DNA from: Ignavibacteriales bacterium
GTDB lineage: Bacteria > Bacteroidota > Ignavibacteria > Ignavibacteriales > Ignavibacteriaceae
NCBI GenBank assembly: GCA_015709675.1
Contig: CP054182.1
Location: 2,087,448-2,151,447, forward strand
Reading direction: 5' to 3'
Length of the DNA stretch: 64,000 nucleotides
Of this stretch, positions 15,238 to 41,852 are shown one piece after another; within the stretch, counting starts at the first letter, position 1; every line of letters begins with the position of its first letter. Under the pieces are notes generated by a model. It was not told the origin of the DNA, did not search any database, and saw only the letters and a program-made list of their open reading frames with translations. The translations under genes were made by a program, and so were the position numbers.

Positions 15238-16734
15238 TTGATCAAAACAAACGTAACGGTACTTGTTGCCATTTTTTTTCTAATGGTAAGCATCCCCGGC
15301 AGGGCACAGCTTTATGTTGCTGTTGACGGTAATGATACCAATCCCGGCACAATTGAGCTCCCACTGAGGACTATCACCCGGGCCATTCAGCTTGCGGCAG
15401 CCGATACAACTATATATATACGCGGCGGCGTTCATGAGTATTCTACCACCATCCGCCTGAATAAAACCGGCGCTCCGGGAAAACCTATTAAGATATTTGC
15501 CTATCCCGGTGAAAAACCTGTTATTGATTTTTCATCACAACCAACAGCAACCACCTCACGGGGATTTCAGATTTCCCATAATTACTGGCATGTGAAGGGG
15601 CTGGAGATCAGGGAAGCAGGGGATAACGGCATTTATATAAGCGGATGGTACAACGTAGTTGAAAACTGCCGGATTTACCGGTGCGAGGATACCGGCCTGC
15701 AGATAAGCGGGGGGGCAAGCCACAATAAAATTATCAATGTTGATTCTTACGAAAATGTTGATATCGCCACAGCGGCTGAAAACGCTGACGGATTTGCCGC
15801 AAAACTCTCCATCGGGCCCGGGAATGAGTTCCACGGCTGCCGTGCTTGGCTGAATGCCGATGACGGATGGGATCTCTATGAGGGGCAGAATCAGGTTATC
15901 ATCGATAACTGCTGGGCTTTCAGAAACGGAATAAATATCTGGGGAATTCCCGGATATCAGGGAGACGGAAACGGATTTAAGCTCGGAGGTAATTATATAC
16001 AGGGTCCGCATGTGGTGACACGCTCAGTTGCCTTTGACAATAAATCCAAAGGATTTGACCAGAACAATAATACCGCCGGAGTAACGCTCTATAACAACAC
16101 GGCATTCAGAAACGGTGCAAGAAATTTTTCTTTTCCGGCGAATCCGGCCTCCGGACAGCACATTCTGAAGAATAATATTGCTTATACCGGTTCAAATATC
16201 CTATCCTCAACAACGCTGCTTGAAGCGAACAGCTGGCAGGGCTTTACCGTCCGCGATACCGATTTTGTAAGTCTGGATACCAGCTTTGTTCTTTCACCGC
16301 GCGGTTCAGACAGTTCCCTACCGTATATAGAGCTTTTCCGGCTCAGGGAAACCAGCCCCCTTGTTGATGCGGGAGTAAATGTCGGTATGGCGTTTAACGG
16401 TACGGCGCCTGATCTCGGAGCATTTGAAACTGGTCCGCTCCTTAACACGGAAGAAGAGATTTTTATGCCGGGAGAATTTACTTTGTATCAGAATTATCCG
16501 AATCCGTTTAATCCTTCAACCCGAATACGGTTCAGCAACGGTTCAGCGGGTGACTACCGGCTTGAGATATTTGATCTTGCGGGAAGCCGGATTGCTGAAC
16601 TTGCAAACGGCAGATTTGAAGCGGGCACACATGAAGTGATATATACCGCTGCCGGGCTCTCAAGCGGGATCTATTACGCGCGCCTGAGCGGATCGGGCAG
16701 CAGCAGATTTATCAAACTACTCCTCCTGAAGTAA
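15238..16734 (+). CDS. Secreted pectate lyase, PL9 family, with T9SS sorting domain
   Basis: The protein has 498 residues: signal peptide (about 1-24), a right-handed parallel beta-helix (about 25-400) and a C-terminal T9SS sorting domain (from about 415, with NYPNPFNPSTRIRF and GIYYARL). The segment ENADGFAAKLSIGPGNEFHG followed by RAWLNADDGWDLYE is the PL9 hallmark: the Lys is the Bronsted base and the Asp cluster binds calcium. PL9 enzymes cut polygalacturonate, or rhamnogalacturonan in some members. The TTG start has AAGGA at good spacing and sits 3 bases after the PL1 stop codon. The sorting domain predicts export by T9SS and attachment or release at the cell surface. Confidence 0.88.
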   Translation: MIKTNVTVLVAIFFLMVSIPGRAQLYVAVDGNDTNPGTIELPLRTITRAIQLAAADTTIYIRGGVHEYSTTIRLNKTGAPGKPIKIFAYPGEKPVIDFSSQPTATTSRGFQISHNYWHVKGLEIREAGDNGIYISGWYNVVENCRIYRCEDTGLQISGGASHNKIINVDSYENVDIATAAENADGFAAKLSIGPGNEFHGCRAWLNADDGWDLYEGQNQVIIDNCWAFRNGINIWGIPGYQGDGNGFKLGGNYIQGPHVVTRSVAFDNKSKGFDQNNNTAGVTLYNNTAFRNGARNFSFPANPASGQHILKNNIAYTGSNILSSTTLLEANSWQGFTVRDTDFVSLDTSFVLSPRGSDSSLPYIELFRLRETSPLVDAGVNVGMAFNGTAPDLGAFETGPLLNTEEEIFMPGEFTLYQNYPNPFNPSTRIRFSNGSAGDYRLEIFDLAGSRIAELANGRFEAGTHEVIYTAAGLSSGIYYARLSGSGSSRFIKLLLLK

Positions 16735-16747: not shown

Positions 16748-18151
16748 ATGAAGAAATACTCTTTCCTTCCCACGATTGCATTACTCATTGCCGCGGCATT
16801 TGTTTCCTGCACCGCTGCAACCCTTCAGCCGGATGAGTGGGCTAAAGTTGATGAGATTAAGAAGAATATCATTCCGCCCGTTTTCCCTGAAAAAGATTTC
16901 CCGGTTACGGATTTTGGCGCATCGGGTGACGGTAAAACTGACTGCACTGAAGCATTCGCAAAAGCAATAACCGCCTGCTCAGACGCCGGCGGAGGAAGAG
17001 TTGTCGTTCCTGCCGGTATATATCTGACCGGAGCCATCCACCTGAAGAGTAATGTCAATCTGCATGTGCAGAAAGGGGCGGTTATACAATTCTCAACGGA
17101 TCCGCAAAAGTATCTTCCTCTGGTATTCACCCGCTGGGAGGGAGTTGAGTGCATGAACTATTCCCCGCTTATCTATGCGTATGAGCAGGAAAATATTGCA
17201 ATTACCGGAGAAGGGCTGCTTGACGGGCAGGGTGCCAATGAAAACTGGTGGAGCTGGAAAGGCAATAAAGTTGACGGCTGGAAAGAAGGAATGCCGCGCC
17301 AGAAAGAGGGGAGAGATAAATTATTTTCCATGGCTGAAAACAATATCCCTCCTGAAGAAAGAATCATGGGTGAGGGATATTATCTCCGTCCGAGTTTTGT
17401 TCAGCCGTATAAATGTAAAAACATTCTTATAGAAGGCGTTACCTTTAAGAACTCACCAATGTGGTTCCTGAATCCGGTTCTGAGCAGCAATATCACCATT
17501 CGCGGGCTCCGGATTGAAGGACTCGGACCGAACAACGACGGATGTAATCCTGAATCCTCCAAAGATGTGCTGATTCAGAACTGTTATTTTGATACAGGAG
17601 ATGACTGCATTGCAATAAAATCCGGCCGCAATAATGACGGAAGAAGAGTTAATGTGCCGAGTGAAAACATCATTATTGAGGGATGTGAAATGAAAGAGGG
17701 ACATGGGGGTGTGGTAATTGGCAGTGAAATATCCGGAGGTGTAAGAAATGTGTTCGCGCAAAACTGCCTTATGGACAGCCCCAATCTTGAACGCGCTCTC
17801 CGAATAAAAACAAATTCAGTGCGGGGCGGCGTGATTGAAAATATCTATATGCGCAATGTGCAGGTGGGGCAGGTCAGTGACGCGGTCATACTGGTTGACT
17901 TTCAGTATGAGGAGGGGGATGCGGGAAATTTTACCCCGACCGTCAGGAATATCTTTGTAAAGAATCTTTCCAGTGAAAAAAGTAAATATGCACTCAGGAT
18001 GCGGGGATATGAACGTGCTCCGATTACCGGACTTGTGCTGGAAAACTGTGTCTTTGAAAATGCAGAAAAGAAAAACATTATCGAGTTTGTGCAAAATCCC
18101 GTTTTCCGCAGGGTTGTGGTTAACGGTGAACTGATGCCGGAAACAAAATAA
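16748..18151 (+). CDS. Polygalacturonase-like glycoside hydrolase, GH28, lipoprotein
   Basis: This 467-residue protein has a lipoprotein signal (AAAFVSC, Cys21), so it is membrane anchored, probably in the periplasm or at the cell surface. The beta-helix starts with FPVTDFGASGDGKTDCTEAFAKAI. All GH28 active-site blocks are present: NNDGCNPES (Asp), DTGDDCIAIKSGRNNDGRR (paired Asp), EGHGGVVIGSE (His) and LRIKTN (Arg and Lys). The enzyme hydrolyses alpha-1,4 galacturonosyl linkages; its length and the insert with NWWSWKGNK suggest an exo-acting form that trims oligomers from the non-reducing end. An AAGGA site lies 8 bases before ATG. It probably converts lyase products into monomers after import or at the surface. 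Confidence 0.92.
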   Translation: MKKYSFLPTIALLIAAAFVSCTAATLQPDEWAKVDEIKKNIIPPVFPEKDFPVTDFGASGDGKTDCTEAFAKAITACSDAGGGRVVVPAGIYLTGAIHLKSNVNLHVQKGAVIQFSTDPQKYLPLVFTRWEGVECMNYSPLIYAYEQENIAITGEGLLDGQGANENWWSWKGNKVDGWKEGMPRQKEGRDKLFSMAENNIPPEERIMGEGYYLRPSFVQPYKCKNILIEGVTFKNSPMWFLNPVLSSNITIRGLRIEGLGPNNDGCNPESSKDVLIQNCYFDTGDDCIAIKSGRNNDGRRVNVPSENIIIEGCEMKEGHGGVVIGSEISGGVRNVFAQNCLMDSPNLERALRIKTNSVRGGVIENIYMRNVQVGQVSDAVILVDFQYEEGDAGNFTPTVRNIFVKNLSSEKSKYALRMRGYERAPITGLVLENCVFENAEKKNIIEFVQNPVFRRVVVNGELMPETK

Positions 18152-18217: not shown

Positions 18218-21200
18218 ATGAACACTCTGCCCTATGTTCGTTTCTCACGGATTCTTTTTTTCTTGCTGATGATGCTTTCAGTTACCTCGTTGGCACAGAC
18301 CAGAAGCAAGATTCAGGGGACAGTTAAGGATGCACAGACGGGTGAGCCGGTTTTCGGAGCGAATGTTATCCTGCTTGATACATATCTGGGAGCTGCAACG
18401 GATATTAACGGAAGGTACTTCATTATTAATGTACCTGTTGGTACCTATACGGTTCAGGTCTCAAGTATAGGATATACAAAAAGGGCAGTGGCTAATGTGG
18501 TGGTATCGGCAGATAAAGTGAGCACTGTTGATTTTGAAATCTCCTCAGCAGTTCTGCAGAGTGAAGAAGTTGTTGTCACAGCCAAGAAAAACACCCTGAA
18601 CACTGAAGTTGCAAATACAATAACGGTAATAACGGCAGATCAGCTTGAAAATACAACCGCTATGCGTGAAGTTTCATCATTTCTGGAAAAACAGCCCGGA
18701 GTATCGGTAGAGAATGGTTTTCTTCAAATCAGAGGCGGCTCGGCTGATCAGACCGGTACCTTTGTAAACGGCATGGCATATAACAATGCAGCTACCGGGA
18801 ATGCAGAAACATCAGTTCCTCTCAGTTCCATAGAACAGGTATCATTGCTTTCCGGCGGTTTTAATGCGGAGTATGGCAATTTCAGGTCAGGTCTTATAAA
18901 TATTACAACGAAATCAGGTTCACGTTCAAAATATCAGGGGACTATCTCGGTCTCACAAAACATTCCGAGGGTTAAGAGATTTGGACCGCTGATGAAGGAT
19001 CCGCTGAGCCCCGCCCTGCGTCCTTATCTTGACGCAGGGGCCGGATTTTACGGGACAGACCGCGCCTGGAAGGAAAATGACCCTTATATATATCAGCAGC
19101 ATGACCGGTTTGACGGCTGGATTAATGCAGCCAATGTATTCAATCAGACCAATCCGGCACGCAGGGCTTCGGCAATGGATTATTACTATCTGGCATCATG
19201 GATGCACATGGCTCTTCCTGATTATGAAGGCCTTAAACGCCTGCCGGACAGTGTGAAAACCGCAATCGGGTTTTATGAATTGACCGACAAACAAAAACAA
19301 TTATTCCAGGAGCATGCCTGGGATGAAGAGGGAACCGATTATAACATAGACTTCGGATTTGGCGGACCATTTCCTTTTGCAAGCAGTATGCTTGGTGATC
19401 TGACGTTCTATATATCACATAATACTAAAGAGACCGCATACCTGATTCCGACGAGCAGAAAAAGCCAGCAGTCACATGTAACTCTTCTTTCGATGAAATC
19501 CAATCCAGACCCTTCATTTACGGTAACAATCAACGGACTGTGGAAACGGCAGAGGGGTGTCAGTCCCATTAAGCCTGCCTTCGGTGATTTCCCCGATGCA
19601 ACAAGGGAAGGGGGTTTTATGACGGAGGATAACCTGCGGTATTTCTCAAGACTTTCGAATCTGGATGGAGGTGTTAATTACTGGTACACGCCGCCGATGT
19701 TTCCTATGCTTGACCAGACAACCATCATGGGCGGATTCGCGCTGAATCATGTAATAAACCCCCGGACATTTTGGGAATTAGGTGCAAGTTATCTTTCCAT
19801 AAAAGACCATTCACCAACGGGTGATAACCGCAGTCCTCAGGTGTTAACAGCGTTTGGGCCCTTCCCCGTAACTGAAATGCCTTATGGAAAACTGCAGTTC
19901 GCGCCTAATAACCGGATAATCTATATATCAGGAGCAGATACCATCAATTATCTGTATCCGAATTATGACGCACTCCCCGGAGTGAGCAGAAGATTCCGTG
20001 GTAAAGAAGGAGATCTTTATACCAACGTGCACACTCAGCAGCAGAGGGTGAAGTTTGACATGGTGACGCAGATTGGTGATCATAATTATGTGAAGGGGGG
20101 AGTAGAGTACAACCGGTTTGATATTGATCATAAACTCTGGATGAAGTGGAACCGCACAGGTCCCTATAACACCTATGAATTTAATTACCGCAGGATACCA
20201 AGCCAGACTGGTATATATTTGCAGGATCAGATTACCTATGAGGGGGTAATCGCAAATGTGGGACTCAGAGCAGACTATTTTTATGGGGGAGGAGGCAAAT
20301 GGCCGTCAGGTGATCCGTTTGCGTTTGCATTTACTTCCGCGTTTGGCGGTGCACCGCGGGATCCGGGTGCGGCAACGGATTCCTTTTATGCTGCTCTTGC
20401 CTCAGGGCGTTCACTCATCTGGGAAAAGTGGGAAGAATATGACCGTCAGAACCCGGGATTTTTACAGCCGGTGAAGAATCATCTTGCACTCAGCCCGCGT
20501 CTTGGACTTTCATTTCCCGTGACTGAGAACGCAAAGTTTTATTTTAACTATGGTCATTTCAGATCAAATCCTCCGTATTACTCAATGTTCCTGATCCGTT
20601 ACCGGTATGACAAAAACGGTATGTATGATATGTCCAATCCGAATCTGGAACCACCAAAAACTGTTTCGTATGAACTTGGAACTACATACAGTTTTCTGAA
20701 TAGTTATCTGCTAAATCTATCCGGTTATTATAAGGATATAACAGGGCAGAACGGAGATGTGAATTACCGGAATAACACGGGCAGTATTGATTACGATTTC
20801 TGGGAAAATAACAATTATCAGGATATTCAGGGTGTTGAGGTAAACATCACAAAAAGCGATAACAGCTGGATCACCGGATGGGTCAATTTCAATTATATGC
20901 TAAAGAAATCCGGATATACCGGTCGTCAGCTCATTTCCGATGTGACGCTGAATGATGATCAGGCTGGGCTGTATGCAGGAAATGAAAGCCGTTTCCTGCC
21001 TCAGCCCCAGTTTAACGCAAATCTCACTTTTAATCTGCCGGATAATATATATGAAAGCAATCCCGTGCTTAACTATCTTCTTTCACGATGGAGCACAACA
21101 TTCTTCTTTGAATGGAAGACCGGAGACTATTTCACCTGGAATCCGTTAAACAAGCAGCATCTGAACAGCAATATGCAGTGGCCCGATTATATGATGCTGA

Positions 21201-21574
21201 ATATGAAACTGAGCAAAAGTTTACGGGTTAGCGGCATTGCGGTTTCTTTATACGTTGATGTGAGCAATCTGCTGAATAATAAAGTTAGTCTGCTCAGCCG
21301 CGGATATGCATTCCGCAGAAACAATGTTGATGCGGGTAACTTTACGGAGTGGGCGGACACAAAGAACTATCTTGCCTCACTGCGGCTTCCTGAATATGCA
21401 TCGGCTGAGTTTGATAATCTGCGTGCGCAGAATCCCGGATATTATATCGCGGGGGAAGACAAGGTCGGGGATCTCCGCTCAGAAGCAAAACCTTACATCA
21501 ATGATCCTGATTACAGTTACTTTATCTATGGCCGTCCGCGGGATATCTGGTTTGGCATGAAGGTGGATTTCTGA
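18218..21574 (+). CDS. TonB-dependent receptor with carboxypeptidase-regulatory-like N-domain
   Basis: This 1118-residue outer-membrane transporter has a signal peptide (about 1-26, ending SLAQ), a CarboxypepD_reg-like domain (about 30-115, IQGTVKDAQTGEPVFGANV), a plug (about 125-235, with VITADQLENTTAMREV and FLQIRGGSADQTG), and a long 22-strand-type barrel ending in FGMKVDF with the terminal Phe of outer-membrane proteins. It resembles SusC-type receptors but no SusD lipoprotein gene is adjacent; a secreted protein and a PorV-like gene follow instead. It probably imports pectic oligosaccharides using TonB energy. The stop codon overlaps the next start by one base. Confidence 0.88.
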   Translation: MNTLPYVRFSRILFFLLMMLSVTSLAQTRSKIQGTVKDAQTGEPVFGANVILLDTYLGAATDINGRYFIINVPVGTYTVQVSSIGYTKRAVANVVVSADKVSTVDFEISSAVLQSEEVVVTAKKNTLNTEVANTITVITADQLENTTAMREVSSFLEKQPGVSVENGFLQIRGGSADQTGTFVNGMAYNNAATGNAETSVPLSSIEQVSLLSGGFNAEYGNFRSGLINITTKSGSRSKYQGTISVSQNIPRVKRFGPLMKDPLSPALRPYLDAGAGFYGTDRAWKENDPYIYQQHDRFDGWINAANVFNQTNPARRASAMDYYYLASWMHMALPDYEGLKRLPDSVKTAIGFYELTDKQKQLFQEHAWDEEGTDYNIDFGFGGPFPFASSMLGDLTFYISHNTKETAYLIPTSRKSQQSHVTLLSMKSNPDPSFTVTINGLWKRQRGVSPIKPAFGDFPDATREGGFMTEDNLRYFSRLSNLDGGVNYWYTPPMFPMLDQTTIMGGFALNHVINPRTFWELGASYLSIKDHSPTGDNRSPQVLTAFGPFPVTEMPYGKLQFAPNNRIIYISGADTINYLYPNYDALPGVSRRFRGKEGDLYTNVHTQQQRVKFDMVTQIGDHNYVKGGVEYNRFDIDHKLWMKWNRTGPYNTYEFNYRRIPSQTGIYLQDQITYEGVIANVGLRADYFYGGGGKWPSGDPFAFAFTSAFGGAPRDPGAATDSFYAALASGRSLIWEKWEEYDRQNPGFLQPVKNHLALSPRLGLSFPVTENAKFYFNYGHFRSNPPYYSMFLIRYRYDKNGMYDMSNPNLEPPKTVSYELGTTYSFLNSYLLNLSGYYKDITGQNGDVNYRNNTGSIDYDFWENNNYQDIQGVEVNITKSDNSWITGWVNFNYMLKKSGYTGRQLISDVTLNDDQAGLYAGNESRFLPQPQFNANLTFNLPDNIYESNPVLNYLLSRWSTTFFFEWKTGDYFTWNPLNKQHLNSNMQWPDYMMLNMKLSKSLRVSGIAVSLYVDVSNLLNNKVSLLSRGYAFRRNNVDAGNFTEWADTKNYLASLRLPEYASAEFDNLRAQNPGYYIAGEDKVGDLRSEAKPYINDPDYSYFIYGRPRDIWFGMKVDF

Positions 21575-23799
21575 TGAAAAGGAACAATGAAATTACCGGA
21601 AAGACTACAAGAAACAGGACTGCAATGATTTTGACAGAATGTATACGCAAAGTGCAAGTGCTGGTACTTATCGTTTTTTTATTTTCTGCACCGCTGTTAT
21701 ACTCACAGACCCCCGAACTTGCAACTGCACTGATTAAAACCGGACGGCTCTGGGGCGGTATGGTTGCCAACGGTGATCAGGGGACATTTGACTTCAGGGC
21801 AGGCTTTTTCCCGAACGACTTTGATATACTGCAATACCGCGGACAGCAGTCGGATAACTATTTCGGAGGAGGATTCAGACTGGCGGCCACTAACTGGCGG
21901 GCTCCTGATGACTCACTCTATCCGGCGGCAATATTCGGTCCGAAAAATGATTTTTATCCTGCCGGAAAGGTTACCGTTCCCATTACAAGTTATATACGCT
22001 ATAAATATCCGGAGCAGACTATAAATGGAAATCCGGTCACCATTCCGATGTTCACCAACTATGATCCTTCTCAGTTTACTACCGGTACTTTTGATCAGAT
22101 TGTATCGGCGTCAAACAAGAATGTTCTCGGTGTTGAAGTAAAACGAACTGTAAGGGCCTGGAGCCAGACCTATAACGACAATTATGTTATTGTTGAAGTT
22201 GAACTCACGAATACCGGAGTTGACTTGCCCGGAGGCGGAGTGCGGCTTGATACCCTTCATAATTTTTACTTTGGGATGTCGCAGGGAATGGCAAACAACT
22301 ACTATTCATACGGAAGCAATCCTTCTCCCCCGGTGAGTGAACGGCCGAATTACCAGTATGTATGGCAGAATTATTACGGTGCAAGGCCGGGAGATTCACT
22401 CCGGGTATTTTATTTTTATAACGCAGATGATCCGGCAACACCCGGAGACAATATGGGAGCGCCTGCATTAAGCCAGAAAGGCAGGCTGCTGAATACAAAT
22501 TATTCGTTTTATACCATACTGCATGCCTCAGCAGTTCCGTATACAAACATCAGTTCTGATTCTGATGATCCTCTTCAGCCGAGAATAACGTATATAGGAA
22601 CTGAAACAAGAATCCCCAGCCCCGGCAGTGGAGAAGATCCATACGGAAGTAAAAACTACTGGGCAATGCGCGGAGGGTATTCGGATAAATACCCAAGACC
22701 CGGCACGCATCCCGGTACGCATCACGGCATAATGAATGACGAACAGGGAAGCCCCGATTTTTCAGCGTTTCCTGCCGGAACGGTTCAGGCAGTTAACTCA
22801 AAGAATTTCAGCAGTTTTGGCCCGTATACACTCGCGCCGGGAGAAAAACTCCGCTTTGTATATGCAGTCGGCATAGCCGGCATTGGCGCGCAGGCAGCAA
22901 AAGAGATCGGAGAGAAATGGTTGGCCGGAACTCTTACCAACCCGCCCAATATGCCGGACGCGAATACCGGATGGCTTCCCTCAAACTTTGCATTTCCTTC
23001 AGATGCAACGGAAATGGATAAGATGAAAGCCCGGTGGATCAGCATGGGGCGCGACTCTGTGATGCTGAGTGCATGGAGAGCAAAATGGAATTTCATGAAT
23101 AACTATCAGATCCCACAGGCGCCTCCGCCTCCGTCACACTTCAGCGTTACCGGATATGGTGATGGTGTTGAGCTTCGCTGGCGGAATGCAGAAGGTGAGG
23201 CAAGAGGGGATTTCGCGGGTTATCTGATTATGCGCCGCGTGTCAAACACTGATACCATCTTTTATCAGGAGATATACAACTCAGACGCGTCGGATAAGGC
23301 ATCTGAGCATATTTACAAAGACCAGCAGGTAGTGCCGGGCGCTCAGTATTACTATTATATACAGACAAAGGCACTCATCGCCGCGAATGACCCCCTGGCT
23401 GATCCGACCACCCGCGGTAAAATGATGTACAGCGGAAGATCGTATATTCCAAATGTATCCTTTATCAATCCCCCCCGCTTTTCAACCGATGATATGAGCC
23501 GGATCCGCATTGTGCCGAATCCCTACAATATTAATGACCCCCTGCTGAAAGTGTATGGCTACACGGATCAGCGCGGCATCAACTTTTTTAACCTGCCGCA
23601 GAAGGTTACTATAAAAATCTATACGGAGAACGGCGATCTGGTGCAAACCATCAATCATGACAGCCCGGAACGCGCGGGATCTCTTACCTGGGATATGATT
23701 ACCGCATCGCAGCAGGTAATCAGCAGCGGTGTATATATAGCGGTGTTTCAGCGGCCGGACGGTGCCACTGCCTATCATAAATTTGTGGTGGTAAGGTAA
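21574..23799 (+). CDS. Large secreted protein with FlgD/T9SS-like C-terminus, receptor partner
   Basis: The protein has 741 residues. A basic N-terminus and a hydrophobic signal (VLVLIVFLFSAPLLYSQ) indicate export; an in-frame ATG at 21625 would give a more usual signal peptide. No lipobox is visible, so it is not a SusD-like lipoprotein. Residues about 50-500 form an unrecognised aromatic-rich domain; about 510-600 is fibronectin III-like (GVELRWRNAEGEARGDFAGYLIMRR). The end has RIRIVPNPYNIND, VTIKIYTENGDLV and SSGVYIAVFQ, typical of T9SS/FlgD-like C-domains. It is coupled by 1-base overlap to the TonB receptor, suggesting they work together on pectin capture. No enzyme motif is seen. Confidence 0.65.
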   Translation: MKRNNEITGKTTRNRTAMILTECIRKVQVLVLIVFLFSAPLLYSQTPELATALIKTGRLWGGMVANGDQGTFDFRAGFFPNDFDILQYRGQQSDNYFGGGFRLAATNWRAPDDSLYPAAIFGPKNDFYPAGKVTVPITSYIRYKYPEQTINGNPVTIPMFTNYDPSQFTTGTFDQIVSASNKNVLGVEVKRTVRAWSQTYNDNYVIVEVELTNTGVDLPGGGVRLDTLHNFYFGMSQGMANNYYSYGSNPSPPVSERPNYQYVWQNYYGARPGDSLRVFYFYNADDPATPGDNMGAPALSQKGRLLNTNYSFYTILHASAVPYTNISSDSDDPLQPRITYIGTETRIPSPGSGEDPYGSKNYWAMRGGYSDKYPRPGTHPGTHHGIMNDEQGSPDFSAFPAGTVQAVNSKNFSSFGPYTLAPGEKLRFVYAVGIAGIGAQAAKEIGEKWLAGTLTNPPNMPDANTGWLPSNFAFPSDATEMDKMKARWISMGRDSVMLSAWRAKWNFMNNYQIPQAPPPPSHFSVTGYGDGVELRWRNAEGEARGDFAGYLIMRRVSNTDTIFYQEIYNSDASDKASEHIYKDQQVVPGAQYYYYIQTKALIAANDPLADPTTRGKMMYSGRSYIPNVSFINPPRFSTDDMSRIRIVPNPYNINDPLLKVYGYTDQRGINFFNLPQKVTIKIYTENGDLVQTINHDSPERAGSLTWDMITASQQVISSGVYIAVFQRPDGATAYHKFVVVR

Positions 23800-23813
23800 G
23801 AAAGGAGACGATT

Positions 23814-24821
23814 ATGAAAAAATCTGCAGTACTGCTTTTATTCTTACTGATTCTCTCACCCGCTGAGGAGGTTAACAGCCAGGTTGCTCTGAACAAGGTG
23901 GCACAGAGTACCATGAATTTTCTTCTGGTCAGCACCTCCCCTCGTGCAGCAGCCCTGGGCGATGCGTATACATCGCATGTAAACGGTGTTGACGGCATGT
24001 GGTATAATCCGGCAGGGCTCGCCGGCATGACCACTGAGTTCGGTGCGTCGGTTCATTATACCGGATGGATAGCTGATATCAACTATCTGAGCGGCGGCGC
24101 GGCATGGAATCTGGGCAATTATGGTGTTCTGGGCGTTAATCTCCTGACGGTTGATTACGGCACGATAATCGGAACCAGTCTGCTTACTGCTGCTGAAAGT
24201 AATCTGTATCCCCTTGGATATAAAGACAACGGAAATCTGAGCAATATCGGGGCCTATGCAATCGGAATATCATATGCTAAGGAGATATCAAAGGAATTCT
24301 CTGCCGGCGGTACGGTTAAATACGCAGGGCAGTCTCTTGGTTCAAGTCTGGTTGAGGCGGGGATGAAAGATAACGATGCAGCAAAACTGGTTTTTGATCT
24401 GGGTGTGCGCTATAAGACTTCCTTTAAGGGATTCTCTTTTGGCATGTCAATCAGAAACTTTGCATCAAATATCAAGCGGGAGGAGATAGACGAACAGCTT
24501 CCGTTGATATTTGCCCTTGGAGGATCAATCAATTTAATGGAATTTATCGATGAGAAGAGCAGTGATCTGCTTTTTCTTACAACGGACTTTCTTCACCAGA
24601 ACAATTATTCTGAGAGAGTGAACGCCGGAGTTGAGTATCTGTTTAAGGAGATGTTTGCACTCAGGGCAGGATATCAGTCAAACCGTGATCTGGCCTCATG
24701 GTCAGGCGGAGCGGGTTTCAGATACCAACTGTATGACTACGATGTAGAAGTGGATTATTCTTACAGCCGTTTTGAAGTATTCAACAGCGTAAACCGTCTT
24801 TCACTGGCTTTTTATTTTTAA
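23814..24821 (+). CDS. PorV/PorQ-family outer-membrane protein
   Basis: The protein has 335 residues with a signal peptide (about 1-22, ending EEVNSQ). The N-terminal STSPRAAALGDAYTSHVNGVD and WYNPAGLAGM segments are the family signature of PorV/PorQ (UPF0164) proteins. Alternating short hydrophobic strands and a terminal aromatic (LSLAFYF) fit a 14-strand barrel like FadL. PorV proteins shuttle T9SS substrates to the attachment machinery. AAGGAG lies 6 bases upstream. Here it is third in the receptor triad, which suggests a dedicated role in handling the preceding secreted protein and not general secretion, though that is inference. Confidence 0.85.
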   Translation: MKKSAVLLLFLLILSPAEEVNSQVALNKVAQSTMNFLLVSTSPRAAALGDAYTSHVNGVDGMWYNPAGLAGMTTEFGASVHYTGWIADINYLSGGAAWNLGNYGVLGVNLLTVDYGTIIGTSLLTAAESNLYPLGYKDNGNLSNIGAYAIGISYAKEISKEFSAGGTVKYAGQSLGSSLVEAGMKDNDAAKLVFDLGVRYKTSFKGFSFGMSIRNFASNIKREEIDEQLPLIFALGGSINLMEFIDEKSSDLLFLTTDFLHQNNYSERVNAGVEYLFKEMFALRAGYQSNRDLASWSGGAGFRYQLYDYDVEVDYSYSRFEVFNSVNRLSLAFYF

Positions 24822-24870: not shown

Positions 24871-27800
24871 ATGAAATTACGGTTATTAACAGCAGCGTTA
24901 GTATTCCTGGGTGCAGGTCAGACCGCTGCGCAAAGTGCATCAGTTGTATATCCGCTTACAAGCACTTCGGGCGGAGTACCGGTAATAACCGGTGCTGTTA
25001 CCGCCCGGAATGAAAGTTTTTCCGGATTGGTTATTAATAATTATACCGGTCCTAACTCCAGCCAGAGAGTGACTACCACCAACGGAAGCTGGCCGGGCGA
25101 AACCGGGCAGGTCAGTGAGAGATATATACAGTTTGCCGTCAGTCCCGCTGCCGGACAGAATTTCACCGTTACAGGCATTTCAATGAAGATCGGCGCCGCA
25201 GGCGGCGGAAATATGCGGGCCAATATCAGAATAGCATCCGATTCAACTTTTGACTCTTCAACACTGCTGAACGCATCACCTTTAGTGCTTCCGAGCGGTT
25301 CCTTTATTTCCCCTGCCCCGGACTATTCAGTTCAGCAGACCATCTATGATGGAGAAACGCTCTATCTGAGAATATACCCCTGGTACACTTCGGCCTCCAC
25401 CGGGAAATATGTGTGTCCGCAGGATGTAACTGTGCAGGGAACCACGGCAGGCGCGTCGGTTATTCAGGTGACACCGGCTTCACTGCCGCTGTTCGGCGCG
25501 GTAGTTGCCGGCACGAATTCAGCATCAGCGGTATATACGGTATCCGGAAGCGCGCTCACCGGTGATGTCAGCGTGACTGCTCCGGTACATTTTCAGGTCA
25601 GCAGTGATAACCTGAATTTCGCTGAAAGTCTCATCCTGCAGCAGAGCGGCGGTGTGCTCAGCGGAACTCCGGTTTATGCAAGATTTTCTCCGGCATCTGC
25701 AGCCGGGACAGTCAGCGGATTTATAACTCATTCAAGCTCAAATGCCGGAACTAAAACTGTTCAGGCCGGCGGTATTGCCATTGCGCAGGAACCAACCGTG
25801 CAGTCTGCCATTACTTTTGGTGAGGTAATGGGCAACTCAATCGTTGTAAATTTTTCTGGCGGAAACGGTGCAAAGCGGGTTATTGCGGTAAGAAAAGATT
25901 CGGCTGTGTCTTGGGTTCCCGCAGACGGAACCATTATCACCGGTGTTAGCAGCAATTATCTTAGCGCGGAAGATAAAGGCAACGGCAATAAGGTTATTTA
26001 TAACGGACCGGGCGGGCAGGTTACCGTAACGGGACTTTCAAGCAATGTGCTTTATCACTTTGCATTGTTTGAGTATAATGAAGGAACCGGAAATTCCGCT
26101 AATTACCTCATTGCAGCGCAGAGCACAGGATCGCAGACAACGCTCGCGGTGCCGACTATCACGCTTAACCCTGCTGATCTTGCGTTTGGAAATGTAGGTG
26201 TTGGTATATATTCACCGGAAAAGAGCTATACGGTATCAGCCGCAACGCTTTCACCATCCTCAGGGGTGATAACAATGAACGCTCCGGCCGGGTATCAGAT
26301 ATCCCTGGCTTCCGGCAGCGGGTTTTCCTCATCAGTAAATCTTCCTTACAGCGACGGCTCCCTGGCGGTAACAACGGTATATGTCAGGTTCATGGCTTCT
26401 GCTCTTGTATCTTATGCGGGAGAAATCACCCACACCGGGGGATCGGCTCCGGCACAGTCAGTCACAGTTTCCGGTGCGGGTATGATACCGAACGCACAGC
26501 AGGCTGCCGATATTATTGTTTCTGAGGACGGTACGGGTAATTTCACAACCATACAGGAAGCGATTAACTCAAGACCTGCCAACAACAGCGTCATGAAAGT
26601 TATCCTTGTTAAAAAAGGAACTTATAACGAAAAAATTTATATATCCAACAGCAATATCACTCTGGTTGGGGAAGACCGTTATGAAAGCAGGATTATCTAT
26701 GCTGAACTCCGCTCCCTCTGGCACACCACCAGCGGGGGAAGCGACTGGGGTGCAGCCACGGTGAATATTAATAATGGCGTAACCAATCTCACGCTTGCCA
26801 ATCTGACCATATATAATAACTACGGTTCGTTATACGGAAGCACTGACCATCAGTTTGCCATCCGGGGCGCCTCTGCTGACAGAATAAGCATTATTAACTG
26901 CGATATTAAAGCTGACGGGGGTGATACACATTCATTATGGAATGCTGCCACCGGGAAATCTTATCACTATAACTGTTACTTTGAGGGATATGTGGATTTT
27001 GTCTGCCCCCGGGGATGGTCATATATAAGCGACAGCCGTTTTTATCAGCGCAGTGCATCCGCCAGCGCGAGCATCTGGCATGACGGCAGTTCAAGCCAGA
27101 ATGCAAAGTTTGTGATCCGGAATTCCCGGTTTGAGGGGGTTCCCAATTTTGCTCTTGGCCGTCATCATCAGGAGGCACAGTTCTTCCTGCTTGATAACTC
27201 ATTCTCTTCCGCGATGAAGAATCAGCCGATTTTCTTCGCTGCGTCCAATCCGCCTATAACCCTGCAGTGGGGGCAGCGATACTATTATTTTAATAACCAC
27301 CGCGATTCGGGAGATTACCCATGGCATAGCGATAATCTTGACTCTGCAGCTGGTTCGCCTCTCCCCGAACAGATAACAGCTGAGTGGACTTTTTCCACCG
27401 CGCCGGCGGTATGGAATCCGGAAGCAAATTTTCCGCGGGTACTGCCCAATGCTGAATTCCCCAAGCCGGAAAGAAGAAAAACCGGAGTGATGAGGAATAA
27501 TCTGCAGCTCAGTTTTGTGCCGGGCAGAAGAGCGGCCTCACATCACATCTATTTCGGAACAGTTAATCCGCCGCCATATATTACCACCGTTACAGGAAAC
27601 AGTTTTGTGCCTCCCGGCGTGGAAGATACCACAATCTACTACTGGAGAGCGGATGCAGTCAGCCAGTTTGATACGGTACGCGGAGAAGTATGGTCTTTCA
27701 GAACTGGTATTGACAGCACTATTCCTGTTGAACTTACATCATTCACTGCATCTGTTTCCGGGAAAAAAGTGAATCTGGAATGGATAACGGCTACCGAAAC

Positions 27801-28302
27801 AAATAACCGTGGTTTTTACATTGAACGAAAAACAGAAAATAGCGGGTGGGAGAAAATAGGATACGTCCCTGGTAAGGGGACAGTAACTTACCGCTCTGTT
27901 TATACATGGACAGATGATGCTTCTTCTGCCGGTGCACAAATTCTTTGGTACCGCCTGAGGCAGATTGATTTCGACGGAACTTCGGTGTACCTGAAGGAAG
28001 TAAAAGCCGATATCGGTAAACCTGGTTCTTATCAGCTTCATCAGAATTTCCCTAATCCGTTTAATCCTGCAACAAAAATAAAGTTTGAGATCCCTGAGAG
28101 CGGGAATACCGAAAGAAAAGTGTCACTTAAAATATATGATTCGCTTGGCAGGGAAGTAAAAACGCTCTTTGACGAAGAAAAAGGGGCGGGATATTATGAA
28201 ATTGATTTTGCGGATGGAGCGCTGCTTGCAAGCGGTATCTATTTTTATCAGCTCCGTTCCGATGAATTTGTCCAGACCCGTAAAATGACTCTCATACGGT
28301 AA
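24871..28302 (+). CDS. Modular secreted pectin methylesterase, CE8, with T9SS sorting domain
   Basis: The protein has 1143 residues: signal peptide (about 1-20), N-terminal beta domain (about 25-190), an Ig/fibronectin-like scaffold (about 195-540), a CE8 beta-helix (about 545-830), a fibronectin-like module (about 870-950), a pre-sorting Ig module (from about 950, IPVELTSFTA) and a T9SS sorting domain (from about 1053, NFPNPFNPATKIKF). CE8 motifs are GTYNEKI, DHQFAIRG, GGDTHS, YVDFVCPRG (Asp709) and ALGRHHQ (Arg764), so the catalytic Asp/Arg pair is kept but the usual QDT, FIFG and LGRPW blocks are altered. It removes methyl esters so that pectate lyases can act. The scaffold is shared with the PL1 protein at 36859. 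Confidence 0.85.
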   Translation: MKLRLLTAALVFLGAGQTAAQSASVVYPLTSTSGGVPVITGAVTARNESFSGLVINNYTGPNSSQRVTTTNGSWPGETGQVSERYIQFAVSPAAGQNFTVTGISMKIGAAGGGNMRANIRIASDSTFDSSTLLNASPLVLPSGSFISPAPDYSVQQTIYDGETLYLRIYPWYTSASTGKYVCPQDVTVQGTTAGASVIQVTPASLPLFGAVVAGTNSASAVYTVSGSALTGDVSVTAPVHFQVSSDNLNFAESLILQQSGGVLSGTPVYARFSPASAAGTVSGFITHSSSNAGTKTVQAGGIAIAQEPTVQSAITFGEVMGNSIVVNFSGGNGAKRVIAVRKDSAVSWVPADGTIITGVSSNYLSAEDKGNGNKVIYNGPGGQVTVTGLSSNVLYHFALFEYNEGTGNSANYLIAAQSTGSQTTLAVPTITLNPADLAFGNVGVGIYSPEKSYTVSAATLSPSSGVITMNAPAGYQISLASGSGFSSSVNLPYSDGSLAVTTVYVRFMASALVSYAGEITHTGGSAPAQSVTVSGAGMIPNAQQAADIIVSEDGTGNFTTIQEAINSRPANNSVMKVILVKKGTYNEKIYISNSNITLVGEDRYESRIIYAELRSLWHTTSGGSDWGAATVNINNGVTNLTLANLTIYNNYGSLYGSTDHQFAIRGASADRISIINCDIKADGGDTHSLWNAATGKSYHYNCYFEGYVDFVCPRGWSYISDSRFYQRSASASASIWHDGSSSQNAKFVIRNSRFEGVPNFALGRHHQEAQFFLLDNSFSSAMKNQPIFFAASNPPITLQWGQRYYYFNNHRDSGDYPWHSDNLDSAAGSPLPEQITAEWTFSTAPAVWNPEANFPRVLPNAEFPKPERRKTGVMRNNLQLSFVPGRRAASHHIYFGTVNPPPYITTVTGNSFVPPGVEDTTIYYWRADAVSQFDTVRGEVWSFRTGIDSTIPVELTSFTASVSGKKVNLEWITATETNNRGFYIERKTENSGWEKIGYVPGKGTVTYRSVYTWTDDASSAGAQILWYRLRQIDFDGTSVYLKEVKADIGKPGSYQLHQNFPNPFNPATKIKFEIPESGNTERKVSLKIYDSLGREVKTLFDEEKGAGYYEIDFADGALLASGIYFYQLRSDEFVQTRKMTLIR

Positions 28303-36816: not shown

Positions 36817-36858
36817 TGGTAATACCTGCAGTAATATAAAAAAGAAGAAATAAGCGTG

Positions 36859-39800
36859 ATGGTGACAGCAAAAAATCTGATGATTGGGGCTTTTCTGCTG
36901 ATGCAGAGTATGCTCATGGGACAGAACATCCTTTCGGAGTATTTCGACTCGGGCAACAGCATACCAACCTCAAGCAGCAATGCACCTGCTGTACCGACGG
37001 ACTATCAGACATCATCCGGAGTATGGACTCTGTTTAAGACATACGGTCACGGCACAACCAATTATTCCGCCCCGTATGCTCTCCGGCTGCTTAAAAACAC
37101 TGCGCAGGCACCGGCCTATGCGTCAACTCCCGCACTAAGCTCGGCAGGAACCATATCATTTTATGCTTACGGAAGTTCAGCTAAGCCGCTTTATATATAT
37201 AAGTCGGTTAACAACGGCACCGACTGGATATTTATTGATTCCGTTAGTACCGGCTCAGGTGTCTTTGCGTATTGTGCAGTGCAGGTGAATGACGGCACTC
37301 CGGGTATCAGACTCCGCATTGTTAACGGTACCGGCGCCGGCAATGACCTTAATCTCGATAACGTTGAAATAACCGGTTACTCTTCTTCGTCCACGATTAC
37401 ATTGTCTTCTGCTTCACTTCCTTCATTCGGAGCAATAGTTTCAGGAGGGCTTTCAGGTTCAGCATCATACACGGTTTCCGGTTATAATCTGACTTCCGAT
37501 ATAACCGTTTCAGCGCCCCAGGATTATCAGGTATCTCTTAATGATACGCTTTTCAGCGGTCAGGTAATACTTGCTCAGGATAGCGGAACGGTCCCGGTGA
37601 CAACAATTTTTGCGCGCTATGCTCCCTCTTCAGCATCAGGTTCAAACAGCGGCAGTATTTCTCACAGCAGTTCTGGTGCAGCCACACAGCAGTCATACGT
37701 TACAGGAACGGCAATTGCTGCTGAACCTGCTTCGGCATCTGCAATCGGGTTTTTTGCGACTGCTGGAAATTCAACATATATACAGATCACCGGGGGAGAC
37801 GGCATGAAACGGCTGGTTGTTGCCCGTAAATCCGCATCGGTTAACTGGACTCCCGCTGATGGAGTTATCTATACCGGGGAGTCTGCAGATTTTACATCCG
37901 CAGCTGATCTTGGCGGAGGAAACCGCCTGCTTCTTAATGGCAGCATGCGTGACACGGTTATCACAGGACTTGAAGGGGGAACAACATATCACTTCGCTGT
38001 TTTTGAATATATGGAGGGAACCAATAATTCGCAGAATTATCTGACTGCAGGAGCAGGAACAGGATCGGTAACAACCGATCCCACACCGCTTCTTTCAATT
38101 ACTCCCGCTCAGTTGCAGTTTGGCAATGTAATGGTCGGAACACTCTCGCAGCCAAAAACAATCACCGTCTCCGGATCAACTCTTTCACCGTTGTCAGGAA
38201 ATATCCTTGTTTCGGCTTCATCCGGATATACGGTTTCTCTGACCTCGGGGAGCGGTTACAGCAGTTCTTTGCAGATACCTTATAATAGCGGAGTATTTGC
38301 CGGAACAGTTGTATATGTCCGCTTCGAACCGCAGTCTGGCGGTGCCTTTGGCGGGTATGTTACTTTTTCAGGCGGCTCTGCACCGCAGGTTCAGACAGCA
38401 GTCACAGGAACGGGGATAACTCAGTCACAGGCAAACGTGTTTGAGGCAGAGGATGCAATTTTTGAAAGCGCATATATACGTCGCCAGTACAGCGGTTATA
38501 GCGGATGGGGATACGCAGATCTGGCAGATAGGACCGGAAGCTGGCTCGAGTTTCTGCTCAGAAAACCGAATGCAACATCTGAAACACTCACTATTCACTA
38601 TGCCAACGGCGGAAGCACAAGAAGTTACAGTGTATCTCATAATGGCTCGGTGCTCGGCAGTATTTCCTTTCCTTCCACAGGCAGCTGGACATCATGGTCA
38701 ACTGTGACCTATCAGATTTCTCTTGTGCAGGGGGTTAACAGAATTCGTTTTGCTTCCACCACAAATAATACCAACGCAAACATTGATAAACTTGAGTTAA
38801 CCGGTGAAACAGCCATTCCTTTATATAGATTAACACTCCTGAAAAGCGGGGAGGGTACGGTATCTGCTGATCAGAGCGGCGAGCTGTTTGATAAAGGTAC
38901 GGTGCTTACTCTGACTGCAACTCCTGCAGCGGGAAATTCTTTCTACCGCTGGAACGGAACTGAAGTCTATTATGGAAACCCTTTTCAGGTTACCATGAAT
39001 GGGCATAAAACACAGATTGCACTGATGACAGATACAACCGGATTTGCTGCATTCCCGTATTATCCGGCACCGAAGGGATTTGCTGCTGTTCCCGGGTACG
39101 GTTATACAAACGGAACTACCGGCGGAGCAAGTGAGGAAAATCATGTCGTGTATGTATCAAATACATCCGATCTGCAGAATATCCTGCTGAGAAGACAGGA
39201 TGCAAACGGAACCATGGGACTGCCTCCTTTGACGATATATCTTTCAGGAATACTCGCGCGGGATGCTGGAATAGGAGAAATGGTGGATGTAAAAGATTCT
39301 TATGATATCTCCATCATCGGGACGGGAAGAGATGCAACAATCACTGGATATGGACTGAATATTGTCCGAAGTAAAAATATCATCGTACGTAATATCAGAT
39401 TCGCGAGCTGGGGTGATGATGGTATATCAGTTGACGGTGGAGATGATCCGGCAAAAGGAAATCATATCTGGATTGATCATTGTACCTTTACTTATACACC
39501 ACCTCCGGGGTATCCGGCTGGCTCCTCACCTGACGGTTCGCTTGATATTACCCATGCGGCAGACTATGTGACGGTTTCTTATTGTCTGTTTGACTCAACT
39601 GATAAAAACAGTCTTGTAGGGCATTCTAATTCAAATGTTGTTGATACGGTTATGAAAATCACGTATCACCATAACTGGTTTAAGGGTTCAAACCAGCGTA
39701 ATCCCCGTGTCCGCTTCGGAAAAGTTCATGTTCTGAATAACTATTATACCAATAATGGTATTTACGCGGTTTCATCAAACATGGAAGCCGATGTGCTGGT

Positions 39801-40608
39801 TGAGGGAAATTACTTTTATAATACTCCGATACCAACGGAAACCAGCCGTGACGGAGGACCTCCCGGTGATCTGGTTGAACGGTACAATATCTTTGAAAAC
39901 TGCGGACCTGCCGGAACCAGAGGCACCGCGTTTGAAGCTTCAGCATATTATTCTTATACAATAGACCCTGCTGCAATCATACCAGAGAAAACCGCATGGC
40001 TTGCCGGAAGCGGAAAATATGATTTCAGCAATCCGGAACATATTGTACCCGCTGAACTTACCACATTTACCGCACGGGTCATCGGCGGCGAGGTTGAACT
40101 TGAATGGAAGACCGGCAGTGAAATGAATAACGCCGGCTGGTCTATTGAGCGCAGAAGTGTAAACGGCGCCTGGCAGACAGCCGGGTATGTTCAGGGGGCC
40201 GGAACATCCGCGGAGAGCAATATATACAGATTCAGAGATAGCAGACAACTTTCACCCGGTACATATTTTTACCGCCTTGCTCAGCATGATTTTGACGGAA
40301 CCACAGTCCACAGTGGAGAGGTTTCCGTTGAACTAAACGGCTCGCTAAGTTTCCGGTTGCATGAAAACTATCCGAACCCGTTTAATCCAACAACGAAGAT
40401 CCGGTTTGAACTTCCTCAGGCAGGTCTCACCGAAATGATCGTTTATGATATACTTGGCAATAAAGTCAGAGAGATATTTAAAGGCAACTTTGAGGCTGGA
40501 TTACATGAGACGATCATAGATGCATCAGGTCTGAGCAGCGGATTGTATATTTACGTACTGCAGGCAGGTTCTCACCGTGCCTCAGGAAAAATGATTCTTC
40601 TTAAATGA
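36859..40608 (+). CDS. Modular secreted pectate lyase: scaffold-CBM-PL1-T9SS domain
   Basis: The protein has 1249 residues. Order: signal peptide, N-domain (about 20-165), Ig/fibronectin scaffold (about 170-520) like that of the CE8 protein, a CBM6/35-like carbohydrate-binding module (about 526-648, VFEAEDAIFESAYIRRQYSG), a bacterial-repeat module (about 650-720), a PL1 catalytic beta-helix (about 740-1050), a pre-sorting Ig module (from about 1060) and T9SS sorting domain (from about 1167, NYPNPFNPTTKIRF). The PL1 part has IWIDHCTFT, DGSLDITHAADYVTVSYCLFD (calcium site) and NQRNPRVRFGKVHVLNNYY with the catalytic Arg. ATG at 36859 is preferred to the adjacent GTG. It overlaps the GH105 start by 4 bases. 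Confidence 0.88.
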   Translation: MVTAKNLMIGAFLLMQSMLMGQNILSEYFDSGNSIPTSSSNAPAVPTDYQTSSGVWTLFKTYGHGTTNYSAPYALRLLKNTAQAPAYASTPALSSAGTISFYAYGSSAKPLYIYKSVNNGTDWIFIDSVSTGSGVFAYCAVQVNDGTPGIRLRIVNGTGAGNDLNLDNVEITGYSSSSTITLSSASLPSFGAIVSGGLSGSASYTVSGYNLTSDITVSAPQDYQVSLNDTLFSGQVILAQDSGTVPVTTIFARYAPSSASGSNSGSISHSSSGAATQQSYVTGTAIAAEPASASAIGFFATAGNSTYIQITGGDGMKRLVVARKSASVNWTPADGVIYTGESADFTSAADLGGGNRLLLNGSMRDTVITGLEGGTTYHFAVFEYMEGTNNSQNYLTAGAGTGSVTTDPTPLLSITPAQLQFGNVMVGTLSQPKTITVSGSTLSPLSGNILVSASSGYTVSLTSGSGYSSSLQIPYNSGVFAGTVVYVRFEPQSGGAFGGYVTFSGGSAPQVQTAVTGTGITQSQANVFEAEDAIFESAYIRRQYSGYSGWGYADLADRTGSWLEFLLRKPNATSETLTIHYANGGSTRSYSVSHNGSVLGSISFPSTGSWTSWSTVTYQISLVQGVNRIRFASTTNNTNANIDKLELTGETAIPLYRLTLLKSGEGTVSADQSGELFDKGTVLTLTATPAAGNSFYRWNGTEVYYGNPFQVTMNGHKTQIALMTDTTGFAAFPYYPAPKGFAAVPGYGYTNGTTGGASEENHVVYVSNTSDLQNILLRRQDANGTMGLPPLTIYLSGILARDAGIGEMVDVKDSYDISIIGTGRDATITGYGLNIVRSKNIIVRNIRFASWGDDGISVDGGDDPAKGNHIWIDHCTFTYTPPPGYPAGSSPDGSLDITHAADYVTVSYCLFDSTDKNSLVGHSNSNVVDTVMKITYHHNWFKGSNQRNPRVRFGKVHVLNNYYTNNGIYAVSSNMEADVLVEGNYFYNTPIPTETSRDGGPPGDLVERYNIFENCGPAGTRGTAFEASAYYSYTIDPAAIIPEKTAWLAGSGKYDFSNPEHIVPAELTTFTARVIGGEVELEWKTGSEMNNAGWSIERRSVNGAWQTAGYVQGAGTSAESNIYRFRDSRQLSPGTYFYRLAQHDFDGTTVHSGEVSVELNGSLSFRLHENYPNPFNPTTKIRFELPQAGLTEMIVYDILGNKVREIFKGNFEAGLHETIIDASGLSSGLYIYVLQAGSHRASGKMILLK

Positions 40609-41852
40609 TAGAAAACAGTCGGTTCCGCAAAATGAAAATCATCAGATATCATGGTTTAATATTGCCTGCTGCAATAGTGCTCATTTGTTTTGGTCTAATT
40701 TCCTGTTCATCATCTCAGGTGAGTTTGACAAAACATCCTGCTGATTATTACACAAGGATTGCTGACAATTTTATAAGACTTTATCCGGATACTGCCGCAT
40801 ATCCTTCAGAGGCAAAAAGTTACCGGTGGAATTATGAACAGGGTTTGCTCTATAATGGGTTTATTAATATGACAGCGGTTACCGGTGATAAGTCATACGG
40901 CAATTATGTTAAGAAGAATATTGATTACTACATTCAGCCGGATGGTACTATTAAAACCTACCGGATGGATCAGTTTAATATAGATAATATAGGCCCCGGC
41001 AGAGCGCTTTTGCATCTATACAGCTTAACCGGTGATAAAAAATATCTGATGGCAGCTGATACGCTATACCGGCAGATGACGCTTCATCCGCGTAATCCAC
41101 TGGGCGGGTTCTGGCACAAGAAGATCTATCCTGATCAGATGTGGCTGGACGGTTTGTATATGGCTCAGCCGTTCCTCGCTGAATATGCAAAAATGACCGG
41201 AAATCAGGCGATGTTTGACGATATTGCATTACAATTCAGACTGGTTCGTGATAATATGAGAGACTCTGTTTCAGGGCTCTATTATCATGGATGGGATCAG
41301 AGCCGCAAAGAAAAATGGGCTGATCCTGTAACAGGACTCTCACCGGAGTTCTGGGGAAGATCGCTCGGTTGGTTTATGATGGCTATGGTTGATGTTCTGG
41401 ATACCTTCCCTGAGGAGCATCCAGGCAGGAAGATGATTCTTGCAATGTTTCAGGATTTAAGCGATGCTCTGCTTTTGGTAAGAGACCAGGAAAGCGGACT
41501 GTGGTATCAGATTGTGGATAAAGGAACAGAGCAGGGGAATTATCTTGAAACGTCCGCCTCTCTTATGTTTATCTATTCTATGGCAAAAGGGGCAAATATG
41601 GGTTATCTTGGGACTGATTTTTTAAGAATTGCACATGATTCCTTTTCATCCCTGATGAGTCAGTTTGTTATCCCGGATAGTTCCGGAAATCTGTTTCTGC
41701 AAAATGTCTGCTCCGTGGCCGGGCTTGGCGGAAAACCCTACCGGAATGGAAGCTATGCATATTATATCAGCGAACCAAAAAGGATAAATGATTTTAAGGG
41801 GTACGGTCCTCTGATTCTTGCCGCGGCGGAATTACTTCGCGGGAGCAGATAG
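40605..41852 (+). CDS. Unsaturated rhamnogalacturonyl hydrolase, GH105, lipoprotein
   Basis: The protein has 415 residues with a lipoprotein signal ending FGLISC, so it is membrane-bound. The (alpha/alpha)6-barrel motifs of GH105/YteR are visible: WNYEQGLLYNGFI, YPDQMWLDGLYMAQPFLAEY with the catalytic Asp182, and SPEFWGRSLGWFMMAMVDVLD. It hydrolyses the unsaturated galacturonic residue that lyases leave at the non-reducing end, releasing a sugar that opens to 5-keto-4-deoxyuronate. That product is the substrate of KduI further down. An ATG at 40632 is an alternative start. It completes the set of enzymes for unsaturated ends. Confidence 0.88.
   Translation: MIENSRFRKMKIIRYHGLILPAAIVLICFGLISCSSSQVSLTKHPADYYTRIADNFIRLYPDTAAYPSEAKSYRWNYEQGLLYNGFINMTAVTGDKSYGNYVKKNIDYYIQPDGTIKTYRMDQFNIDNIGPGRALLHLYSLTGDKKYLMAADTLYRQMTLHPRNPLGGFWHKKIYPDQMWLDGLYMAQPFLAEYAKMTGNQAMFDDIALQFRLVRDNMRDSVSGLYYHGWDQSRKEKWADPVTGLSPEFWGRSLGWFMMAMVDVLDTFPEEHPGRKMILAMFQDLSDALLLVRDQESGLWYQIVDKGTEQGNYLETSASLMFIYSMAKGANMGYLGTDFLRIAHDSFSSLMSQFVIPDSSGNLFLQNVCSVAGLGGKPYRNGSYAYYISEPKRINDFKGYGPLILAAAELLRGSR

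Follow-up and report, generated by a model that had tools for sequence, protein, structure and literature searches.

A conserved TonB receptor, type IX-secreted partner and PorV-type barrel as a candidate SusD-independent uptake module in the Ignavibacteriales

The stretch of DNA analysed here (the window) comprises 64,000 nucleotides of an Ignavibacteriales bacterium (GCA_015709675.1, contig CP054182.1, positions 2,087,448 to 2,151,447) and carries, inside a pectin locus at 18218-24821 on the plus strand, three consecutive genes for a TonB-dependent receptor, a 741-residue protein (p741) and an outer-membrane barrel. The host genome is a single contig of 4.21 Mb, and its named close relatives with p741 orthologues are metagenome-assembled genomes of the Ignavibacteriaceae and Ignavibacteriales. 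The receptor (18218..21574, 1118 aa) consists of a CarboxypepD-reg-like N-terminal domain, a plug and a barrel (Pfam PF13715, PF07715 and PF00593, all above cut-off), and falls outside the SusC/RagA family (TIGR04056, 70.2 bits against a cut-off of 368). A longer open reading frame (ORF) begins at 18161, but 18218 is the better start because the Shine-Dalgarno-like AAGGAGAGG lies just 5' of its ATG and no such site precedes 18161. The last base of the receptor's TGA is the first of the p741 ATG, and this one-base overlap, like the three genes and their order, is as an earlier note on this DNA had described it.

The second gene (21574..23799) encodes a protein with a signal peptide and no lipobox, as had also been claimed. 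The signal peptide (residues 1-45, 21574..21708) is a hydrophobic stretch ending in PLLYSQ, with a later ATG start possible, and the lipobox pattern matched neither p741 nor any of 45 full-length relatives. A large N-terminal domain (21709..23118), presumed to capture ligand, had no Pfam match across 22 family members and belongs to no known family, although the consensus of the 22, this genome's paralogues included, carries a LGxxVxR...AFSQ..DNY motif. It is followed by a fibronectin type III (FN3)-like domain (23131..23445), identified by profile matches to titin/FN3 chains of the PDB and by the strands of an AlphaFold model, and by a PorZ-like C-terminal domain (CTD; 23485..23796) of the kind used for sorting or anchoring by the type IX secretion system (T9SS). 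Only the FN3 and CTD parts of the AlphaFold model, built from a six-sequence input, are usable (mean predicted local distance difference test score, pLDDT, 42), and a search of the PDB with full-length p741 returned FN3 chains only.

The third gene (23814..24821) encodes a barrel of the PorV/PorQ family, in agreement with its first description (NF033709, 177 bits against a cut-off of 90). Its scores lie below the cut-offs for canonical PorV (NF033710, 69.7 of 250 bits) and PorQ (NF033711, 82.6 of 220 bits), and NCBIfam contained no PorP/SprF-family match at E <= 1. The barrel profile matches the Flavobacterium johnsoniae PorV structure 6h3i (E 1.4e-10), and the best Foldseek match of its AlphaFold model (pLDDT 73) is 8gl6_F, the PorV of a substrate-bound T9SS complex (E 4.1e-12, TMq 0.70). 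A tree of the barrels was rejected as support: it separates the triad barrels from canonical PorV and PorQ, yet with long branches, support of 84/89 and one non-triad barrel among them.

When the genome was searched with the three proteins and the ORFs around the matches were mapped, receptor, partner (the p741 homologue) and barrel were found contiguous and on one strand in eight places (the window and loci L070, L072, L073, L074, L075, L076 and L078), with -10 to 56 bases between genes, and the same triad parts in rearranged order in L071. Several loci depart from one partner per receptor. L080 (7288-19716; G000:C1:2537k-2550k) encodes four near-identical partner-type proteins in tandem, followed by one barrel apparently serving the array; small proteins of 86-90 residues (MKNxLFNLIIGAVIALAIFSSV) recur between these copies, with another at L073 984-1256. 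At L078 6536-18627 and L085 239-5275 a single receptor and a single barrel are followed by several further partner-type paralogues, which suggests exchangeable partners on one receptor and barrel. Related barrels also occur in L079 (6694-10199; G000:C1:3040k), where a 540-residue T9SS-tailed protein is followed by two successive, divergent PorV-like barrels, maybe in a surface-polysaccharide cluster, and in L082 (5383-13585), where the gene directly 5' of a PorV-like barrel encodes a 2380-residue protein, part of which resembles a model of an anammox S-layer protein.

The arrangement extends well beyond this genome. Forty loci of relatives were chosen by their partner gene and hence test its neighbours rather than its frequency: in every one of them the gene directly upstream of the partner encodes a receptor, and 39 of the clusters include a barrel, which is the partner's immediate downstream neighbour in 34, comes one gene further on in two and precedes the receptor in three. 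The remaining locus, L130, shows no barrel, its last partner gene being cut by the contig end. Of 148 genomes drawn from across the phylum, 79 contain the family according to a profile of 22 partners, and 19 of the 20 loci taken from further families of the phylum hold the triad, 17 of them contiguously; one gene is inserted in L170, and in L179 an overlapping ORF obscures a triad whose receptor and barrel are in place. In the distant genome G350, nine of the ten partners belong to contiguous triads. One of its triad receptors is split into two ORFs of 634 and 502 aa (L197 11022-14333), reflecting a frameshift, a pseudogene or a sequencing error, and in L197 and L200, unlike in the pectin locus, the triads have TPR and FG-GAP/ASPIC-UnbV proteins as neighbours. 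Conservation of gene order, the check proposed with the original observation, holds for the copies in this genome, the relatives and the distant loci alike.

The three genes also diverge together. When distance matrices were compared across nine sets of this genome, those of the receptor, the partner, its tail and the barrel correlated with r 0.78-0.87 (p <= 0.0012, Mantel permutation), and the same comparison across nine sets of G350 gave r 0.80-0.93 (p <= 0.0012). Comparing paralogues within one genome removes the confound of the species tree, and the correlations indicate inheritance of the triad as a block.

A SusD partner for the receptor is absent. The SusD profile (PF07980), which detects SusD in a Bacteroides control genome, found none in the whole 4.21 Mb, so that the earlier statement that no SusD gene is present extends from the locus to the entire genome and no SusD elsewhere could partner the receptor. 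SusD and the partner family are also anticorrelated across the 148 genomes, in which six or more SusD genes were found in none of the 62 genomes with a strong partner-family hit (E < 1e-40) and in 30 of the 86 others (Fisher p 8e-9), a contrast that is uncorrected for phylogeny and in which the genomes with neither match are not all listed. Within family f41, which includes both states, the 13 partner-positive genomes have 0-4 SusD genes and the five listed partner-negative genomes 5 to at least 14 (p 7e-4). Across the class, 54 of 245 genomes have SusD above cut-off, mostly as one copy, and a SusCDE operon has been reported for Melioribacter roseus (PMC3534657); the SusD system and the triad can coexist.

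The C-terminal tails of T9SS type in this genome form two sharply distinct classes, one carried by enzymes (consensus QNYPNPFNPxT...YDxLGxEV...SGxYxYxL...K) and one by partners (PNPY...F.NLP..CTI.IYT..GDLV.TI.H...W........G.Y.......K..IR). When the profiles were built from relatives only, the partner profile gave the tails of the eight contiguous triads 46-152 bits and the enzyme profile gave them 0-15; for clear enzyme tails the enzyme profile gave 72-131 bits and the partner profile 0-12. The tail of the rearranged L071 set gave 17.5 bits with the partner profile and 0 with the enzyme profile, and the tails of partners from other classes 83-110 and 7-16 bits, respectively. Against the whole PDB, the partner-tail profile matched PorZ (5m11, E 7.4e-6, the full tail aligned to its last residue) and PorU (6za2, E 0.037) and no other T9SS tail below E = 1. 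A control profile of 13 enzyme tails instead recovered the RemA/FspA-type cargo tails of translocon structures (8glj, 8glk) and, weakly, the RgpB tail (5hfs, E 0.9), and found neither PorZ nor PorU. Within p741, only the tail matches the PorZ equivalog NF052228 (E 5.5e-7, 28.4 bits against a cut-off of 260), a model matched by 13 of the 22 partners. The label 'T9SS-like' given to p741 in the earlier note is apt, with the qualification that its tail is atypical, scoring 17.3 bits with the type A sorting model TIGR04183 (cut-off 23). Partner tails further share with PorU and PorZ a longer loop before the GxY motif. In Porphyromonas gingivalis the tails of PorU and PorZ are kept on secretion while those of RgpB and HBP35 are removed (PMC11285876), and the barrels PorV and PorQ keep PorU and PorZ, respectively, attached to the cell surface (PMC5562754). 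Judged by sequence, the p741 tail resembles these uncleaved, barrel-docked domains and not the cleaved domains of cargo proteins.

The rest of the secretion machinery is encoded elsewhere in the genome, with SprA above cut-off, a PorU of 971 bits, a separate PorU-linked PorV just under its cut-off (246 of 250) and a PorQ (249 of 220); ordinary enzyme tails are served by this set. Type A tails are reported all to use one PorV, and type B tails to use private PorP/SprF-like barrels that are often encoded next door, are present in matching amounts and set the final location (PMC12618676), the type B proteins being anchored by these barrels (PMC9143113). With its N-terminal signal peptide and an Ig-like CTD matching those of PorZ and PorU, p741 has the layout of T9SS cargo.

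In our judgement the triad is probably a SusCD-like uptake module whose T9SS-exported partner is held by its own PorV-type barrel. Secretion of the partner and its pairing with the receptor and barrel are well supported; the steps that follow are conditional. The receptor would act as the energised channel. The partner would cross the inner membrane via Sec and the outer membrane via the translocon SprA, and the co-encoded barrel would take its CTD as it exits. Uncut by the PorU sortase, the CTD would stay docked on the barrel, following the example of PorZ with PorQ and of PorU with PorV, with the barrel as membrane foot in place of SusD's lipid anchor. Placed over the receptor mouth like a lid, p741 would capture ligand, here probably pectin oligosaccharides. 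The earlier note had proposed a different uptake system in place of SusD, and given the conserved gene order and the SusD-free genome this is still the best reading. It had also assigned the barrel the task of delivering the secreted protein; a permanent hold is likelier than mere delivery because the CTD resembles the uncleaved, barrel-docked PorZ and PorU domains.

Several points weigh against this interpretation, besides the lack of phylogenetic correction in the SusD contrast. Operon co-inheritance is no proof of protein contact, and the N-terminal domain of p741 has no recognised fold, leaving ligand binding putative. The match to PorZ, with E 7.4e-6, is modest and that to PorU marginal, and a special closeness of triad tails to the genome's own PorU tail was rejected, that tail scoring 17.5 bits with the triad profile and 29.3 with the enzyme profile. 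Grafting the PorU/PorZ hairpin onto RgpB left cleavage intact (PMC11285876), so the longer loop is a mark of the family rather than a proven cause, and the sequence does not reveal whether the tail is retained. Structural work, moreover, suggests that the affinity of a CTD for PorV drops after exit from SprA (PMC10994853). Lastly, a 1406-aa protein in L207 (7658-11878; G000:C1:2732k) has a triad-type tail (52.6 against 14.5 bits) and no receptor or barrel nearby, possibly as an orphan using the barrel of another locus, and the distant locus L172 holds a lone partner; because of these two, the link between partner, receptor and barrel is strong and not absolute.

The retention step is where the first alternative parts from the proposed module. 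The barrel may be a dedicated shuttle only, with PorU cleaving the tail and p741 passing to lipopolysaccharide or being released while still serving the receptor. Canonical PorV is such a shuttle (PMC5562754), PorU is encoded in the genome, and Por_Secre_tail is weakly matched in 9 of the 22 partners. However, one canonical PorV should serve all ordinary type A tails, which leaves a private shuttle for each partner unexplained; the tail class fits uncleaved rather than cleaved domains, and the pairing of one barrel gene with each partner gene suits anchoring. We therefore regard a pure shuttle as possible though rather unlikely.

It is also unlikely, and somewhat more so, that p741 acts as a secreted enzyme or an adhesin, sharing the operon and anchored by the barrel but with no lid or binding role for the receptor. 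An N-terminal domain without known family and the extra partner copies without extra receptors in L078 and L080 would suit such a protein. A free enzyme, though, needs no fixed receptor, and here receptor and partner diverge together; the partner follows the receptor in 40 of 40 relatives' loci and the triad persists in 19 of 20 distant ones while neighbouring enzymes change. We give very little credence to a third possibility, that the PorV-like barrel is a FadL-type ligand channel and p741 feeds both barrels, for although FadL and TodX are among the Foldseek matches, PorV structures rank at the top and the profile is that of the PorV/PorQ family, whose known members hold CTDs. Operon noise or an annotation artefact, which the small original observation with nothing further would have allowed, is practically negligible given the recurrence and phylum-wide conservation of the triad, and chance gene order was rejected on that ground.

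The ligand suggested for the SusCD-like module comes from its surroundings, in which the pectin genes around the triad all lie on one strand. Upstream are a Pel9A-like pectate lyase with a standard T9SS enzyme tail (15238..16734, +; PF22842, PF18962) and a glycoside hydrolase family 28 (GH28) polygalacturonase-family protein (16748..18151, +; PF00295, NF049892). Directly downstream follows a pectinesterase with a standard T9SS enzyme tail, which served as a control tail (24871..28302, +; PF01095, PF18962), and further on lie a pectate lyase family protein with CBM6 and a standard T9SS tail (36856..40608, +; PF00544, PF03422, PF18962) and a GH88 unsaturated glucuronyl hydrolase family protein (40605..41852, +; PF07470). 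A TRAP transporter of the DctP-DctQ-DctM type, likely for uronate uptake across the inner membrane (42975..45759, +; PF03480, PF04290, PF06808), and UxaC, UxaE and KDPG aldolase for galacturonate catabolism (47755..51390, +; PF02614, PF16257, PF01081) complete the locus. This context is retained in the 19 loci with the closest p741 homologues: a Pel9A-like protein occurs in all 19, and at least one of GH28, pectinesterase, GH88, pectate lyase and UxaC in 17. From these kept genes, pectin is a fair guess for the ligand of this orthologue group. The suggestion in the earlier note that the secreted protein captures glycans agrees with the pectin loci of this group, but probably does not extend to the system as a whole, as other copies have no obvious glycan genes adjoining; the uptake system is probably not glycan-specific. 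A 466-residue protein at 13834-15234, directly 5' of the pectin lyase, had no Pfam match and has a relative in 10 of the 19 loci; it may represent a pectin-related family of a new type. A 679-residue protein (11313-13352) with DUF4842 and DUF4114 is encoded between the pectin genes and a histidine kinase.

We lean, if only slightly, towards a broader proposition, namely that the phylum has a second, SusD-independent solution in which T9SS-exported partners with distinct non-cleaved tails sit permanently on private PorV/PorQ-type barrels in three-protein complexes for diverse ligands, and that the rule of one PorV for all type A tails fails outside the well-studied Bacteroidia. Many outer-membrane receptors of Ignavibacteria and related lineages would otherwise pass for solitary TonB receptors, next to genes annotated as 'T9SS sorting domain protein' and 'PorV/PorQ family protein'. 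If the module is as described, it would explain why these genomes have over a dozen PorV paralogues, offer a route to finding polysaccharide loci without SusD, and tie protein secretion directly to nutrient uptake. It would also make testable what decides between PorU cutting and barrel docking of a T9SS tail, left unresolved in PMC11285876, as many natural examples of both tail classes occur within one genome.

Among known systems, SusCD/RagAB likewise combine a TonB receptor bearing a CarboxypepD-like N-terminal domain with a co-encoded surface partner, often in polysaccharide loci. The triad differs in that its partner is neither SusD nor a lipoprotein and is T9SS-tailed, a PorV-family barrel is added, and the receptor scores under the SusC cut-off. 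With PorZ-PorQ and PorU-PorV of the T9SS attachment complex it shares an uncleaved-type CTD on a surface protein and a dedicated PorV/PorQ-family barrel as anchor; the remainder of the partner, however, is unrelated to PorZ or PorU, a TonB receptor is linked, and there are many paralogous sets per genome. Type B CTDs with PorP/SprF-like barrels (SprB-SprF, PG1035-PorP) also pair one CTD protein with one private shuttling and anchoring barrel that is often adjacent (PMC12618676, PMC9143113), whereas the triad's barrel is of the PorV/PorQ family, its tail PorZ-like and its proposed role nutrient uptake, not adhesion. The triad may also have been sequenced before in a cultured organism. The sole GH10 xylanase of G350 is encoded by the second gene downstream of a triad (L198: receptor, partner, barrel, a 909-residue T9SS protein and GH10). 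The xylan cluster of Rhodothermus marinus comprises the TonB receptor Rmar_1070, hypothetical proteins 1071 with a Por tail, 1072, and 1073 with a Por tail, and the GH10 protein 1074, with a separate SusCD pair after Rmar_1074 (PMC6987092). This gene list matches the L198 order, with the module unrecognised in the published work (PMC6987092); it suggests that the triad is already present, unnoticed, in that organism, and from gene order alone G350 may itself be R. marinus. No earlier description of the module was found in the open-access literature, subscription papers and preprints being outside the scope of the search. Its parts (TonB receptor, PorV-family barrel and T9SS tail) are known; their combination and the proposed anchoring are new within that literature.

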